From the NCBI RefSeq assembly GCF_002094305.1, contig NZ_LWTX01000004.1, positions 124,001-188,000 of the forward strand: a stretch of 64,000 nucleotides of DNA, given 5' to 3'. Positions 51,558 through 64,000 of this stretch are shown here, one piece after another. Within the stretch, counting starts at the first letter, position 1. Each line of letters begins with the position of its first letter. This DNA comes from Prescottella equi. Lineage in GTDB: Bacteria; Actinomycetota; Actinomycetes; Mycobacteriales; Mycobacteriaceae. The translations under genes were made by a program, and so were the position numbers. Below the pieces are notes generated by a model. It was not told the DNA's origin. It ran no database searches and saw only the letters and a program-made list of their open reading frames with translations.

Positions 51558-53705
51558 GTGAGCAAGCCGGCAACCAGCAACTCCACAACGCGCCGCACCT
51601 CCCGGTGGCGGTGGCTGCTCCCGGCGGTCCTGGTCCTGGTGTGGCTGGGCGTCGGCGGTTTCGGCGGGCCGTTCGCCGGCAAGCTCGGTGAGGTCCAGCA
51701 GAACGACAACACCGCCTTCCTGCCGTCGTCCGCGGAGGCCACCGAGGCGGGTGCCCGCTACGACGGCTTCACCGACACCCGTTTCGTACCGGCCATCGTC
51801 GTCGCCGAACGCGATTCGGGGACAACGCCGTCGGACTCGGATTTCCTCGCACGGGTGGGCGCCTCGGTCGCGGGGCAGCCGGGATTCGGTGACGAGACCT
51901 CACCGCCGATCCCGTCGCAGGACGGCCGCGCGCTGCAGATGATCGTGCCGATCGATTCGACGGTCGACGTCGGCGACAGTGTCGAGACGTTGCGGACGGA
52001 TCTGAGCAGCCCGCCGGACGGTCTGACGGTTCTGGTGACCGGTCCGGCCGGGCAGGTCGCCGACCTCTCGACGGCGTTCAAGGGCATCGACGGGTTGCTG
52101 CTGCTGGTGGCGGCCGCGGTGGTCCTGCTGATCCTCGTGATCGTCTACCGCAGTCCGCTGCTGCCGTTCCTGGTGCTCTCGTCCGCAGTGTTCGCGCTGG
52201 GACTCGCGAGCCTGCTCGTCTATCTGCTGGCCGATGCCGGTGCGATCGCACTGAACGGGCAGAGCCAGGGCATCCTGTTCATCCTGGTGTTCGGTGCCGC
52301 AACCGACTACGCACTGCTGTTGGTGGCGCGCTACCGCGAGGAGCTCCACAACGCGCCGGACCGGTTCGACGCGATGAAGCGGGCGTGGCGCGCCACCCTC
52401 GAACCGGTCGCTGCCTCCGCCGGCACGGTGATCGCGGGCGTGCTGTGCCTGCTGCTGTCCGACCTCAACTCCAACCGCGGTCTCGGTCCCGTCGCCGCCC
52501 TGGGTATCGCGGCGTCCTTCGTGGCGTCGATGACGTACCTGCCTGCGGTGCTCGTGCTGTTCGGGCGGGTCGCCTTCTGGCCCAAGCGACCGGCGTACGA
52601 CCCCGAGCACGCCGACCGGGACGAGGCTGCCGACCACCGGTTCTGGGGCGCGCTGGCGCGCAAGGTGGGCGCGCACCCGCGACGGTTCTGGGTTGCGTCC
52701 ACGCTCGTGCTCGCCGCGTTCGCGTTGCTGCTGCCGACCTTCAAGGCGAGTGGCGTGGCGCAGTCCGACATCTTCCTGCTCGACGTCGATTCCGTGGCCG
52801 GCCAGCAGATCCTCGGGGAACACTTCGATGCGGGCTCGGGGTCGCCCGCGGTCGTGATCGCCGACGCCGGCGCTCTGGACGGAGTCCTCGCGGCGTCCCG
52901 CGTCGACGGGGTGAGTGACGCGCGAGCGGTCACGGCGCCGGGGGAGGCGACCCCACTGGTCGTCGACGGCCGGGTCGCGATCCAGGCGACACTCACCGAT
53001 CCGGCCGATTCGCTGGCCGCTGCGCGCACGATCGAGCGACTGCGCGAGTCGGTGCATGCGGTTCCGGGTGCCGACGCGCTGGTGGGCGGTCCGACCGCGA
53101 CGGACCTGGACACCAAGAACACGTCCACCCGGGACCGGACGGTCATCATCCCGGTCGTGATCGCGGTGGTGTTCGCGATCCTCGCGCTGCTCCTTCGATC
53201 GCTGCTGGCGCCGCTGCTGCTGATGGGCACCGTCGTGCTCTCGTTCGCCGCAACCCTCGGGGTGTCGTCGCTGGTGTTCGACCACCTGCTCGGCTTCCCG
53301 GGCGCGGACCCGGTGGTTCCGCTGTTCGCGTTCGTGTTCCTCGTGGCGCTGGGGATCGACTACAACATCTTCCTCATGACCCGGGTGCGGGAGGAGTCGC
53401 TGCGCGTCGGCACTCGGCGCGGCGCCCTCCGGGCGCTGACCGTGACCGGTGGAGTGATCACGTCGGCCGGTGTGGTGCTCGCGGCCACGTTCTCGGCGCT
53501 CGCGGTGATCCCGCTGCTGTTCCTCGCGCAGCTCGCGTTCATCGTGGCGTTCGGTGTGCTGCTCGACGCACTGCTGGTGCGGTCGCTGCTGGTGCCCGCG
53601 CTCACCGTCGACATCGGACAGCGGATCTGGTGGCCGAGCCGTCTGGCGTCGGCGCCGGAGCCGTCGGACACGCCGCCCGCGAGGGCGGAATCGACTCTCC
53701 ACTAG
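51558..53705 (+). CDS. MMPL-family RND-type transporter
   Basis: The 715-residue membrane protein has two six-helix halves, each with a soluble loop before it. The first half carries the [22 protein letters not shown] signature (about 232-253) and the second [20 protein letters not shown] (about 592-611). The paired Asp-Tyr residues there form the proton-relay site of MMPL proteins. It is probably an exporter of lipids or drugs; with the MarR neighbour, efflux is likely. mshC follows at 10 bases but is probably transcribed separately too. Confidence 0.9.
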
Positions 53706-53715
53706 GCTCGTTCCC

Positions 53716-54957
53716 ATGCAGTCTTGGTCCGACACCGCTGTCCCGTCCGTGCCCGGTCAGGGGCCTGCCCTCCGGCTCTACGACACCGCGGATCGGCAGG
53801 TGCGGCCGGTCACTCCGGGCGCGACGGCGAAGATGTACGTGTGCGGCATCACGCCGTACGACGCGACCCACCTCGGTCACGCCGCCACCTATCTGACGTT
53901 CGACCTGGTGAACCGGCTGCTGCGGGACGCCGGTCACGCGGTGCACTACGTGCAGAACGTCACCGACGTCGACGACCCGCTGTTCGAGCGCGCCGACCGC
54001 GACGGCGAGGACTGGGTGGTGCTCGGCATGCGGGAGACGGCGCTCTTCCGTGAGGACATGGAGGCGCTGCGGGTGCTCCCGCCGCAGGACTACATCGGGG
54101 CTGTGGAGTCGATCGGCGAGGTCGTCGAGTTGGTCGAGAAGTTCGTCGCGTCCGGTGCGGCGTACGTGGTCGACGACCCCGAGTACCCCGACGTCTACTT
54201 CCGCGCGGATGCGACCGCGCAGTTCGGTTACGAGTCGGGCTACGACCGGGCGACCATGGTCCACTTCTTCGCCGAGCGCGGCGGCGATCCGAACCGGCCC
54301 GGCAAGCGGGATCCGCTCGATGCTCTGGTGTGGCGGGCGCAGCGTCCGGGCGAGCCGTCGTGGCCGTCGCCGTTCGGCCCGGGCCGTCCCGGCTGGCACA
54401 TCGAGTGCGCCGCGATCGCGCTCAACCGCATCGGCTCGGGTTTCGACATCCAGGGCGGCGGTAGCGACCTGATCTTCCCGCACCACGAGTTCTCGGCGGC
54501 GCACGCCGAATCTGCCACCGGCACCGATCGTTTCGCCCGCCACTACGTGCACACCGGCATGATCGGTCTGGACGGCGAGAAGATGTCCAAGAGTCGCGGC
54601 AACCTCGTGTTCGTCTCGAAGCTGCGCGGCGAGGGTGTCGATCCTGCCGCGATCCGGCTCGGTCTGCTCTCGGGGCACTACCGGGTCGACCGTCCGTGGA
54701 CCGATCAGGTGCTGGCAGACGCGCAGGAGCGGCTCGCGTTGTGGCGCAAGGCCGCCGCGCTCGAGTCCGCCCCGTCGGCCGAGGACACCGTGGCGCGGCT
54801 GCGGCAGCATCTCGCGGACGACCTGGACACCCCCAAGGCCCTCGACGCGCTCGACGGCTGGGCCCGGCGTGCCGTCGATCACGGGGGACCGGACGCGGGG
54901 GCGCCCGGTGCCTTCGCGGACGCGGTGGATGCGCTGCTGGGCGTCGAACTGCGCTGA
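53716..54957 (+). CDS. mshC: Mycothiol synthesis ligase MshC
   Basis: This ATP-dependent enzyme joins cysteine to GlcN-Ins in mycothiol synthesis. The 413-residue cysteinyl-tRNA-synthetase paralogue has the zinc ligand C43 in [16 protein letters not shown], with the HLGH nucleotide motif, WHIECAA as second zinc Cys, and KMSKS at about 282-286. It lacks the anticodon-binding domain of CysS, and its length matches MshC. Order beside the Rv2133c-2136c group agrees with Rv2130c. The convergent GNAT-AAA gene ends 1 base away. Confidence 0.95.
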
Positions 54958-54958
54958 C

Positions 54959-56236
54959 CTACAGCCGGGTGAACTTCTCGCTGTCCGCCTCGAATTCGGT
55001 GAGCAGTTCGGTGGTGAGGGTCGGTCGGGTGTCGGCGATCGCCGTGAGGTAGTCGTCGGTGGTGGCCGGTCTGCCCGATCGCTCGGTGACCTCGCGTTCA
55101 AAAGCGGCCTGAGAACCCTTCCGGGACGCGAACTCGATGTCGGCCGGGGTGAACAGCTCGCTCGCCTCGACGAGTCGATCGAGATCGACGTGCGCAGCCG
55201 ATGCGCCGAGATACCGGTGCCAGACGGCCTTGCGGGCCGGCTCGTCGGGCGGCCCCACGGGGATCACGTAGTCGAAGCGCCCCGGCCGCAGGAAAGCGGA
55301 GTCGAGGGCATGCACCGAGTTGGTGGCACAGACCATCAGTCGGCGCTCGCCCTCCCGGAACGCGGGAATGAGTTTGAGCAGTTCGTTCGTGACGCCGTGC
55401 GCGGGGTTGGTGGCGACTCCGGTTCGGGCGCTTGCGATCTCCTCGACTTCGTCGATGAACAACACCACCTCGTCGAGTTCGGCCAGATCCGCGAACACCT
55501 CGCGCAGGGACGCGGCGAGCCCGCCCTCGGACGATGCGGCGAGGCGGGACGGGAACAGTTCGACGAACGGCCAGTCGAGGCGTGACGCGATGGCCTTGGC
55601 GAAGCTGGTCTTGCCCGTGCCGGGCGGGCCGAACAGGATCACCGCCTTGGGCGGCTGAACGCCGTAGCGGTCGGCGAGGTCGGGGTTCTCGAGCGGCGAG
55701 ACGATGCGGCGCTCGATGACCTCCTTGACTCCCTCCATGCCGGACATGGTGTGCCACAGTCCTTCCGGCATCACCCGGCCGCCGAGCTCACTGAGCAGAG
55801 TCTTGTCCGGGCCCAACGGTTCGAGCAGTTCGTAATAGACCAGGCCGTCGCGACGGAGGTATCCCGAGTGCTCGAACGCCGCGGATCCGGTGGCGGCATC
55901 GGGCATCACCGCCGAGATGCGGTGGGCGCCCGCGCTGCGCAGTCGTCGCTCGAGGTTCGCGAGCAGGGCGCTCCCGATGCCACGGTTGCGCCAGCGTGAG
56001 CCGAGCGCGACGAGCAGGATCCACGCCCGTTCGCCGTGCACCTGTGCGACCGCCATGCCCACCAGTTCGTCCCCGACGGTTGCGACCACCGCGGGCTGGC
56101 CGGCGCGGGCCGCCGCCATCACCTCCGCGAGTGTGAACACCGGTTCGGACGAGCCCGGGATGCGACTCTGGTCCCAGATCTGGATGGCCTGGTCCAGGTC
56201 GTCGTTCTGGAAGTCGCGCAATCGCCACACCGGCAT
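54959..56236 (-). CDS. GNAT acetyltransferase domain fused to AAA+ ATPase
   Basis: The 425-residue protein combines two domains. Residues about 1-145 are a GNAT fold with the acetyl-CoA loop SRWRNRGIGSALL (about 80-92). Residues about 175-425 are an AAA+ module with Walker A GPPGTGKTS (about 204-212), Walker B VVLFIDEVEEI, sensor ATNSVHALD and arginine finger region FLRPGRFDY, closest to FtsH/Cdc48-type AAA domains. No protease domain follows. The fusion suggests an ATP-driven remodelling factor whose activity depends on, or performs, acetylation. Function is unknown. Confidence 0.85.
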   Translation of the reverse strand: MPVWRLRDFQNDDLDQAIQIWDQSRIPGSSEPVFTLAEVMAAARAGQPAVVATVGDELVGMAVAQVHGERAWILLVALGSRWRNRGIGSALLANLERRLRSAGAHRISAVMPDAATGSAAFEHSGYLRRDGLVYYELLEPLGPDKTLLSELGGRVMPEGLWHTMSGMEGVKEVIERRIVSPLENPDLADRYGVQPPKAVILFGPPGTGKTSFAKAIASRLDWPFVELFPSRLAASSEGGLAASLREVFADLAELDEVVLFIDEVEEIASARTGVATNPAHGVTNELLKLIPAFREGERRLMVCATNSVHALDSAFLRPGRFDYVIPVGPPDEPARKAVWHRYLGASAAHVDLDRLVEASELFTPADIEFASRKGSQAAFEREVTERSGRPATTDDYLTAIADTRPTLTTELLTEFEADSEKFTRL

Positions 56237-60261: not shown

Positions 60262-60447
60262 GGCTCATGCTCCGGCTGGGGGCTGCGGGTGCAGCCGCGT
60301 CGGGCGTGAACACCGGTATCATCGGAAGTGGTCCTCGGGATCGAGACCGTCGGATCACCGGGTGGTCACGGCAATGTCACAACCAGATAACAGGCCGTTA
60401 CCAAAGATCTTCAAGTGATCGAGACGAGCGCCACTCTGGGCACCGAA

Positions 60448-60463
60448 AGTGATTCAGATCACA
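60448..60463. promoter_or_regulatory. CRP/GlxR-type binding site
   Basis: AGTGATTCAGATCACA fits the CRP-family consensus TGTGA-N6-TCACA at nine of the ten fixed positions. It lies 187 bases before the GH19 start, so it may control that gene by cAMP-dependent regulation. GlxR/CRP proteins with this specificity are common in Mycobacteriales. Confidence 0.65.
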
Positions 60464-60624
60464 AATCTGTCGGCGTGTCGTTGCGGGTTTTGTGCCCTCA
60501 GCCCTGGTAGGTGAGCTTTTCGTCGTGGCTCGGGTGGGGAGGGAAACCCCTCGTCGTGACCTTCCAGCCCCGCAATCGGCTCCGCATCAGCGCGAAGATG
60601 AACCGCGATCGGCGCCCACGGGAC

Positions 60625-60650
60625 CGGTTCGTGACATCGGTTCGTGACAT
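60625..60650 (+). repeat. 13-base perfect tandem repeat
   Basis: CGGTTCGTGACAT occurs twice without gap (60625-60637 and 60638-60650). It lies 92 bases past the stop codon of the TIGR02680 gene and far from the GH19 start. Each copy contains GTGACAT, also present near 60370 on the other strand, so a shared binding motif is possible. Confidence 0.55.
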
Positions 60651-60741
60651 CACCGCCGCCGACCGATACATGTCTGCGACCCCGTGCCTCGACCCGTCGG
60701 CCTCCTCGGGTGGGGGCAACGAACGGCGCCGCCCGGCGTCC

Positions 60742-63700
60742 CTACGCGTCCGCGAACTCCAGACCACCGTCCGCCGTGGCGGGGACGCGGCGGCGCAGCG
60801 GTGACCCCAGGGCCCGGGCGAGATCGCTGCCGTCGTGCTCGGCGAGCAGGTCGCCGCCGGACCAGACGAGCAGTGCCGCGCTGACGCTCTGTTCGGCTGT
60901 CGAGTGCGCCAGGTCGTAATGCGCGCACCCCGGAACGCCCGGGTACGTGATCCAGAGGTCGTAGCCGGTCATGAACAGGTCGAGATCGAACTGGACACTC
61001 AGACCCAGCAATTCGCTGCGCCCGTTGTCGTCGACACCAGCGAAGGCCTCGTCGAGGCCCAGCAGGCGGGGCGAGTGCGGATCGGCCGACGAGAGCATCA
61101 CGTGCGCGGCAGCGAACAGCGGAAGGTGCAGGGATACCGACTGCTCGCCACCGGACAGCGCGCTGTGCCGCGCCACGGTGAGACGGTCCTCGCTGCCGTC
61201 CCCGCCGATCAATGTGAACGAGAACACCCGCCACCGGCGGTAGTCGAGCGCCGACGCGAGGATCTCGGGGTACGAGCGCTCCGGGTGCGCAGCCCGGGCG
61301 ATGCGCACCTGCGCCGCGAAGTGGGCGCGGATGGTCGCCAGCTCGTCGGCACTCAACGCCGCGGGCGCGCGGTCCAACAGCTTGGACACTGCACGGGAGG
61401 TGTCGTCGAGGTTGTCGGCGAGTACCCAGTGCACGCCGATCGTGCTGCCCGACGACATGCGCCGCTCGCGCATCTCGGCACCCATCTGGGCGATCAGGTC
61501 ACGGGCGTCCGCGGTGCGCTCGTGGATCTGCTGGGCGAGGCCGGTCAGCAGCGCGTCCTCGAGGATGCGCCGCTCGGAGTCGGTGAGCAGGACCTCCTGG
61601 TCCTGACGTGCCGCCGCGATCCGCGTCGAGAACTCGCCGATCGACGAGTAGCCCTGATCGTCCTGGACTCGGACGACGGTCAGCCCGTCCGGCGCGTCCC
61701 ACTGCAGGCGGTAGTCCTGACCAGCCGCGGCCAGTTGCGCGTCGAAGTCCTGCAGTGCCGCGGTGAGCGCCGACCGGGTCGACTTCTTCGCGTTCTCGCT
61801 GGTCCGGACGGACGCGGTCGCGGCGTCCATCGCGCGATAGAGCGCCGCGACCTCGGCCGGCAGGATCGGTGCGTCCGGATCGCCCTCGGTGACGATCCGG
61901 TAGACGAGCTGGTCCGGGGTGAGCCACGCGGCCGCACTCTGCGGCCAGGTGTGCTCGCCCTCGACCCGCAGCAGGTCGAGGAGGTCACGTCGCGCGTACG
62001 GTGCCAGTCGGTCGGCGTCGGTCCGGGTCTCGGTGAGCGCGCTGCGCAGTCCTTCGACGGCTGCGTTGTGCGCACCCTCGGCCTTGCCGATCTGCTCGAC
62101 CGCCGCGTCGTAGGCCTTGCGTGCCGCCCGCTGTTCGGTCTTGCATACCTCGATCCGCGCCCGCGCTTCCTCGAGATCGGCATCGATCTGTTCGGCGCTC
62201 GCTCCCAACGCCTCGCGCAGCGTCTCGAGGCGCGAGACCTGCTGCGCGTAGTTCTCCTCGGCGACCGCTGCCTCCTCGACGAACTCCTCGGTGTTGCCGC
62301 GGGCCTCCTCGAGCCGGTCCTCGGCCTCACGGTGGAGTTCCAGTTCCTTCTCGTGCTCCCGGCGGCAGCGCAACAGCTGTTCGCCCTGGCTCTCGAAGTG
62401 CCGGATCGACGCGGCGAGGGCATCGACGTCACGGGCGTGGTGCGACACCCGATGCGCGACCGCGACGGCGCGAAGTTGCTTCTCCTTCGCCGTGTGATCG
62501 GCGATGGCCTGGTCGAGTTCCTGGCCGGAAGACTCGGTCGACTCCGACCGGGTTCGCAGCGCTCCGGCCGCTTCGGTCAGCTTCTTGAGCGCGGCGAGGA
62601 CGGCACCGGTGCGCGGAAGCGACTTCGCGGCGCCCGCGAGCGTGTCGAGCAGTGCCTTCGCGTCGCCTTCGACCGCGCGGGCGGCGGTCCGGGCGTCCTC
62701 CGCCGCGGTGATCTCGGCGTCGAGTTCGTCGATGCGCTGGGCGCGGCGACGTTCGCGCGCCGTGGTGCCGATGTACTCGGCGTCGGCCTTGACGTGCCGG
62801 CCCCGCGCTATGCCCTGCCAGAACCGTCCGTCGACTCCGATCCCGACGTGCGTGTCGCGGGCGCTGCCGTCGCGGTCCAGCGAGACCGAGTCGAGGATCG
62901 CCCGGACCCGATCTTCGGGCACTCCGGTATCGCTTTCCACGGCGAGCACGTCGGCGAGGGTCGCGCCCTGCGGGCGGCGGTCTTCCGGCAGCGGCTCGAG
63001 GAACTGCTCGGACTCGATGTCGGCCGGCGCATCGTCGGTGGGAAGCACCCACCCGTCGAGGAGGTTCGCGGCAGCGAGCGCGGACTCGACGCCTGCAGCG
63101 ATGACGGGTTCGACGTCGTCGGCGAAGCGCACGAGACGCCACAGCGGAGCTCCGGGCAGCTCGCTGCGGTCCCCGGTGCGGGACGCGAATCGGGCAGGGG
63201 CGTCGTCCTTCTCGGCGGCGACGTGCTTGCGGTCGGTCTGCAGTTCCGCGATCCGGGCGGTCGCGGCCGCCTGCGCGGCGGCGGCCTCGCGGCGGCGGGC
63301 CCGCTGCTCGTCGAGCGCGGATTCGACGTGCTCGTGCAGCACGGTGCTCAGGCTGGGGGAGTCGTCGTCGCCGGCCTGCGCGAGCGCCTTGTCCAGTGCC
63401 GCGAACAGGTCCGCGGTCACGCCGATCGCGGCGTAGTCGGCGGAATGCTCGGTCCACCAGGAGCGCAACGCCGCCGCGCAATCCGCCCGGGCCAGCTCCA
63501 CCGTCGCCTCGGCTTCGGCGACCGCGGCCTGTGCGGCCTCGAGCAGTTCGCGCCCCTTGTCGGCGGCCCGGTCCGCGCGTTCGCGTTCGGTGTTCGCCTT
63601 CTCGACGGTGGCGAGGGCGGCGCGCACGGCGCGGACGTCGCCGTCGCGTTCCTCGGCGTGCCCGCGGACCGCGGCGATGATCTGATCCGATCGCGAGCCC

Positions 63701-64000
63701 TCCGGCAGCGGGGTCCACGCGATGCCGGCCTGCTCGGCGGCCTCGGCCAGTTCGGTCTCGGCGCGTACCAGTGCCGCGGTGGCGGTCCGCACCGATTCGG
63801 TGGCGCGCGTTGCCTCGCCGGTGCGCTGTTCGAGCGTGGCCTGCGCCTTGCGGGCCTTGTCTGCCTGCTGCTCGGTCGACAGCTTCAGCTGTGCCACGGC
63901 GGCCGCGAGGTCGTCGAGCTGCTGTTTGCCCTCGTAGGCACCCGAGCGTTGCAGGGTGTCGAGGTCGGCGCGGGCCTGCTCGAGGGCGCGCTCGGCGGCG
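60742..64000 (-). CDS. jetC: TIGR02680-type SMC ATPase, Wadjet JetC (5' end outside window)
   Basis: About 1085 residues are visible, the frame remaining open to the window edge. Most of it is Ala/Glu/Arg-rich coiled coil (two long arms). Between them, at roughly 63100-62700, is a hinge-like globular segment with FASRTGDRSELPGAPLWRLV, EFLEPLPE-type and DGRFWQG motifs, typical of TIGR02680 as I remember it. Near the C-terminus are the ABC signature SALSGGEQSVSL (about 133 residues from the end) and Walker B LLGLDEAFAGVDD (about 105 from the end). The Walker A half, about 270 residues, lies beyond 64000. In Wadjet systems this SMC subunit, with JetA, JetB and nuclease JetD, cleaves plasmid DNA. 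No JetD follows downstream. Confidence 0.85.
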   Translation of the reverse strand, partial: AAERALEQARADLDTLQRSGAYEGKQQLDDLAAAVAQLKLSTEQQADKARKAQATLEQRTGEATRATESVRTATAALVRAETELAEAAEQAGIAWTPLPEGSRSDQIIAAVRGHAEERDGDVRAVRAALATVEKANTERERADRAADKGRELLEAAQAAVAEAEATVELARADCAAALRSWWTEHSADYAAIGVTADLFAALDKALAQAGDDDSPSLSTVLHEHVESALDEQRARRREAAAAQAAATARIAELQTDRKHVAAEKDDAPARFASRTGDRSELPGAPLWRLVRFADDVEPVIAAGVESALAAANLLDGWVLPTDDAPADIESEQFLEPLPEDRRPQGATLADVLAVESDTGVPEDRVRAILDSVSLDRDGSARDTHVGIGVDGRFWQGIARGRHVKADAEYIGTTARERRRAQRIDELDAEITAAEDARTAARAVEGDAKALLDTLAGAAKSLPRTGAVLAALKKLTEAAGALRTRSESTESSGQELDQAIADHTAKEKQLRAVAVAHRVSHHARDVDALAASIRHFESQGEQLLRCRREHEKELELHREAEDRLEEARGNTEEFVEEAAVAEENYAQQVSRLETLREALGASAEQIDADLEEARARIEVCKTEQRAARKAYDAAVEQIGKAEGAHNAAVEGLRSALTETRTDADRLAPYARRDLLDLLRVEGEHTWPQSAAAWLTPDQLVYRIVTEGDPDAPILPAEVAALYRAMDAATASVRTSENAKKSTRSALTAALQDFDAQLAAAGQDYRLQWDAPDGLTVVRVQDDQGYSSIGEFSTRIAAARQDQEVLLTDSERRILEDALLTGLAQQIHERTADARDLIAQMGAEMRERRMSSGSTIGVHWVLADNLDDTSRAVSKLLDRAPAALSADELATIRAHFAAQVRIARAAHPERSYPEILASALDYRRWRVFSFTLIGGDGSEDRLTVARHSALSGGEQSVSLHLPLFAAAHVMLSSADPHSPRLLGLDEAFAGVDDNGRSELLGLSVQFDLDLFMTGYDLWITYPGVPGCAHYDLAHSTAEQSVSAALLVWSGGDLLAEHDGSDLARALGSPLRRRVPATADGGLEFADA

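Follow-up and report, generated by a model that had tools for sequence, protein, structure and literature searches.

A Wadjet type II JetABC motor lacking JetD in Prescottella equi and many of its relatives suggests a defence machine retained for a job other than plasmid cutting

The window considered here is a 64,000-nucleotide stretch of Prescottella equi DNA (G000:C4:124001-188000, from a genome of 5.2 Mb). Its last feature is a minus-strand open reading frame at 60742-64000, with its stop at 60742 and still open at the right edge, leaving 1085 amino acids visible. The complete product, read from the neighbouring stretch L002 (G000:C4:184001-203000), has 1390 amino acids, and the window therefore shows its C-terminal three quarters or so. 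The features of the locus are as follows.

Window 60742-64000, gene continuing to about 64914 (L002:742-4914), minus strand: jetC, type II (TIGR02680), from the open reading frame and profiles
Window 61144-61158, minus strand: ABC signature LSGGE, JetC residues 1253-1257, position computed from the gene start
Window 61042-61071, minus strand: Walker B PRLLGLDEAF, JetC residues 1282-1291, position computed from the gene start
Window 62845-63201, minus strand: central hinge-like segment, JetC residues about 572-690, by eye from the translation, limits approximate
L002:4936-6348, minus strand: jetB (TIGR02678 / DUF2398, KITE), profile match
L002:6345-7859, minus strand: jetA (TIGR02677 / DUF2397, kleisin), profile match
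L002:7909-8988, minus strand: HTH-like gene of 359 amino acids, 49 bp upstream of jetA, weak sub-threshold Pfam HTH match
Window 60262-60741, minus strand: stretch from the 3′ end of jetC to the next minus-strand open reading frame, without a JetD reading frame
Window 53554-54957: mshC-like open reading frame, about 6 kb from jetC on its other side, recognised by eye

The visible part of JetC matches TIGR02680 with 391.9 bits (E 6.7e-117), which is under the cut-off of 462.85 because the window edge cuts the gene; it also matches PADLOC JetC2 (E 3.5e-281) and Pfam SbcC_Walker_B. The full-length protein scores 712 bits against TIGR02680, above the cut-off, and the identification as the TIGR02680 SMC subunit of type II Wadjet, made in the original prediction from the visible part, is borne out. 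Its match to the chromosomal SMC profile TIGR02168 is far weaker (21.5 bits, cut-off 567), and it scores only 39 bits with the type I JetC1 profile as against 1435.9 with JetC2. Walker A (GPNGSGKT) is at residues 35-42, and the C-terminal ABC signature and Walker B that had been pointed out are present at the positions listed above. The putative hinge is a central segment without coiled coil, as judged by eye from the translation. Among solved structures, JetC and JetA of 9qe0 come nearest; a reference list indicates 9qe0 to be the Neobacillus vireti Wadjet complex (9qe0/9qe1).

The remainder of the operon had been expected past 64000, and it is there. JetB scores 136.4 bits against TIGR02678 (cut-off 124.65) and 231.4 against PF09661, and JetA 244.3 against TIGR02677 (cut-off 165.85). 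The jetA and jetB frames share 4 bp and a gap of 21 bp separates jetB from jetC, which makes a single jetABC operon likely. The best match of JetC is thus not SbcC, RecN or a chromosomal SMC, and Jet partners lie nearby, the two points on which the prediction had been staked beforehand. By its sequence, the window-edge gene is part of a three-gene Wadjet-type motor, JetA/JetB/JetC. The fourth gene is another matter. Nothing JetD-like lies 3′ of jetC, as had already been seen, and the next 8 kb hold TIGR02677 and TIGR02678 matches and none to TIGR02679. Altered gene order, a JetD upstream and a missing JetD had been offered as explanations; the order is A-B-C as in type II, the upstream side has no JetD, and it is the last of the three that stands.

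Past jetA, on the same strand, come the HTH-like gene, an MFS transporter, PAC2 and metH. A scan for promoters and terminators gave a result near chance. On the other side, the window at 54959-56236 (minus strand) has an open reading frame resembling, by eye, a fusion of a GNAT acetyltransferase with an AAA+ ATPase.

In Wadjet, DNA is extruded by JetABC and JetD cuts after extrusion completes (PMC12647877, PMC10586767); JetABC senses and JetD cuts (PMC10586767). The P. equi genome has no match to TIGR02679 or to PF09664 (DUF2399) at E≤10. Among the 14 genomes examined of the genus (the Prescottella / Rhodococcus hoagii group), none matches TIGR02679, none matches the type I JetD_C profile PF09983 (with which Corynebacterium glutamicum is positive), and none matches a profile for which nine JetDs from the same JetABC clade were used. 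No JetD was found upstream, in trans or fused to another protein in the P. equi genome, the genus or the loci read. JetA is over its cut-off in all 14. With no JetD found in this genome or in 13 others of the genus, the label "anti-plasmid defence operon" that the locus had been given is not supported. A chromosomal SMC is likewise present in 14/14, and JetABC has therefore not replaced it.

The TIGR02679 search of the 14 genomes had by itself no positive control; the family sample supplies one, as 27 of its 251 genomes have JetD and TIGR02679 and the clade-JetD profile pick the identical 27. JetA is present in 106 of the 251, including all 27 with JetD, and 79 of the 106 are without it. At class level (296 genomes) JetA was found in 66 and JetD in 58. 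Outside the family, JetD is within 16 kb of JetA at 48 of 66 JetA places (only places over about 107 bits being counted, and second fragments left out), and eight of the other 18 are in genomes without any JetD match. JetA places with no JetD match at all are seen in the class-level genus g65 (e.g. G425, G433, G456, G496), perhaps another JetD-less lineage, outside the family. In the family, JetD is absent from 98 of the 124 loci examined. Absence of JetD is, then, not unique to the family, but is far commoner there.

The 124 JetA loci are the P. equi one, 13 from the rest of the genus and 110 from the family, with genes called by a home-made codon model and with the G230 JetA pieces and secondary fragments left out. 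Genera are given by code, with apparent assignments: g1, Prescottella / R. hoagii group; g23, Rhodococcus in the narrow sense; g21, R. maanshanensis group; g6, Rhodococcoides; g27, R. coprophilus group; g22, Nocardia; g15, Antrihabitans; g25, Speluncibacter. In a tree of concatenated JetA, JetB and JetC (2309 columns), one clade holds 96 JetABC loci, 78 without jetD and 18 with it (14 in g6, two in g23 and one each in g15 and g27). At 71 of the 96 (55 JetD-less, 16 with JetD) the operon has metH/PAC2 on its upstream side or mshC with its neighbour on its downstream side. The other 25 are in part at contig ends and in part have the operon elsewhere; the latter is so for 14 of the 15 JetD-less g27 loci of the clade, where the common neighbourhood was not seen. 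Two further, separate clades are JetD-less, one in g13 (4/4) and a second g27 family (15/15).

The four g13 genomes (L027-L030) have a canonical-type JetA of over 530 bits. The second g27 family (L119, L120, L122-L126, L128-L135) is divergent and at another conserved site; its JetC has ISQGE and LDD motifs, and Walker A deviates in L135. The HTH-like protein is conserved and belongs to no named family, and it adjoins jetABC only in g1, g23 and two g27 loci. It is perhaps a regulator. A role for it as replacement effector is ruled out, as it neighbours operons with and without jetD alike and is limited to these groups.

Could a JetD be present and simply be too divergent for the profiles used? 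The first-look profile filters do score only part of the candidates (7 of 19 in G000, for example). However, the profiles recovered several distant JetD kinds within the same family, 24–34% identical to one another, and the operons have no extra conserved open reading frame. A six-frame search at E≤10 gave no JetD trace in any of the 98 loci classed as JetD-less, with a model that detects 26/26 JetD loci, 22 of these being its training set. The spacing at the expected site is also telling. In L064 (R. tibetensis) jetC, jetD and mshC follow one another; its sister L057 has 65 bp from the end of jetC to mshC, and 38–65 bp is common for this gap in JetD-less g23 loci. A divergent JetD is accordingly improbable.

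Whether JetD was lost or gained is less simply read. Equal-weight parsimony on the 96-locus clade needs six changes and places an ancestor without JetD at the root, which means gains; loss-only parsimony needs 19, or 15 when weak branches are merged. Yet the JetDs of the clade form a single branch (support 0.99), none of them grouping with other family JetDs, and the gene is always 3′ of jetC. Between genera JetD identity is 0.39–0.50 and JetC identity 0.61–0.69, with JetD divergence tracking that of JetC. Because there is one JetD branch, always after jetC, with identities falling with those of JetC, we prefer repeated loss as the probable course, though simple parsimony alone favours gains. 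Some JetD-containing operons may be whole-operon replacements, a possibility in g6 because its operons with and without JetD are in different sub-clades.

Loss of an effector is a usual first step of decay, and the motor could be what is left of a defence system on its way out. The state of the genes argues strongly against this. At 72 of the 78 JetD-less clade loci A, B and C are full-length and in single frame, with Walker A, LSGGE and an LDE Walker B (coverage of at least 0.85 for A, 0.60 for B and 0.95 for C, the JetB threshold being low to allow for an over-long home-made model, with which no JetB exceeds 0.66 among the matches listed). The remaining six give no clear case of decay: five are truncated at the ends of contigs and one, L007, is in an error-rich assembly, 79% complete, in which all three jet genes are broken and the chromosomal SMC is also in pieces. 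Median dN/dS in the genus is 0.096 for jetA, 0.182 for jetB and 0.125 for jetC, compared with 0.081 for metH and 0.072 for PAC2 (Nei-Gojobori, pairs with dS of 0.1–1.2, 78 non-independent pairs per gene, L007 left out). In other genera the jetABC values are 0.12 to 0.26. These low ratios, and the JetA found in all 14 genomes of the genus, leave the decay reading largely refuted and its probability very small indeed.

Conservation of JetABC is overall equal without and with JetD, the pairwise identities being 0.69 and 0.68 for A, 0.60 and 0.56 for B and 0.65 and 0.66 for C, respectively. Sliding windows show few and mild differences, the largest at JetC residues 572-596 (0.77 with JetD, 0.59 without). 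The JetB N-terminus has the reverse trend, being more alike without JetD, of which start-codon errors may be the cause. A search for sites changed upon JetD loss was dropped, since the differences are too weak among so many windows.

JetABC without JetD suggests a defence machine that is retained for a job other than plasmid cutting. With the cutting subunit missing, Wadjet cannot act by the mechanism described for it. A type II Wadjet core has probably lost JetD and been maintained as a non-cutting auxiliary SMC complex, this function being a prediction. JetABC would still load onto DNA and would extrude loops with ATP, with no cutting to follow. It might then be an auxiliary chromosomal (or plasmid-compacting) complex beside Smc-ScpAB, by analogy with MksBEF of Pseudomonas aeruginosa, a JetD-less type I relative for which a non-cutting role has been proposed in review (PMC10586767). 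A chromosomal role should not be taken for granted, because C. glutamicum MksBEFG acts on plasmids and is without effect on chromosome folding (PMC7083940).

The motor may instead have stayed anti-plasmid, compacting and silencing small circles itself or delivering them to some unrelated nuclease whose gene lies elsewhere. JetABC is, after all, the circle-sensing part of Wadjet, silencing of viral circles has been proposed for Smc5/6 (PMC10586767) and would be a precedent, and strong retention of jetABC is compatible with any useful function. The neighbouring genes do not favour it. The families within two genes of JetD-less operons in at least three genera are mshC, its neighbour (c6), PAC2 and the MFS gene, and among genes so shared there is no substitute nuclease, nor any that resembles a substitute effector. 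A persisting anti-plasmid action is therefore rather unlikely, though it deserves to be kept in mind alongside the predicted auxiliary complex.

The auxiliary complex, if such it is, could mark a second path, independent of the first, by which a plasmid-defence system becomes an SMC complex that does not cut, and this conversion would be still under way: a type II clade, often at one core site, with repeated loss of JetD, a motor under purifying selection and sister species differing only in the nuclease. The chances of this broader reading are about even. Whether defence systems gave rise to MukBEF and MksBEF is a question that has been raised (PMC10586767), and JetD-less JetABC bears on this origin of chromosome-organising SMC complexes. 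Since close relatives exist with and without JetD, action of JetABC without cutting is directly testable. There is also a consequence for defence surveys. Three-protein matches in Rhodococcus erythropolis are tabulated as Wadjet_II (PMC12915292) and Wadjet is said to be encoded by 73% of Rhodococcus genomes (PMC10482375); the available portions of these two surveys have no remark on an absent nuclease, and some of the Rhodococcus Wadjet entries may have no anti-plasmid effector. A literature search, with subscription papers mostly outside its reach, found no report of a JetD-less type II Wadjet.

Set beside known systems, the P. equi operon is closest to type II Wadjet (JetABCD), sharing the jetA, jetB and jetC families, the A-B-C order and overlapping frames, and differing in that JetD was not found and that most clade loci are in a common core-genome neighbourhood. 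Like P. aeruginosa MksBEF it has an SMC, a kleisin and a KITE protein and no nuclease; MksBEF, however, is type I, whereas the present complex is type II by the JetC profiles, is actinobacterial and has relatives with and without JetD within one clade. C. glutamicum MksBEFG is likewise an actinobacterial Wadjet alongside a normal Smc-ScpAB, but retains its nuclease, MksG, whose JetD_C profile has no match in the 14 genomes of the genus. With Smc-ScpAB itself JetC shares the SMC ATPase architecture, while being a weak match to the SMC profile and encoded by a separate gene, additional to the chromosomal SMC in all 14 genomes of the genus.
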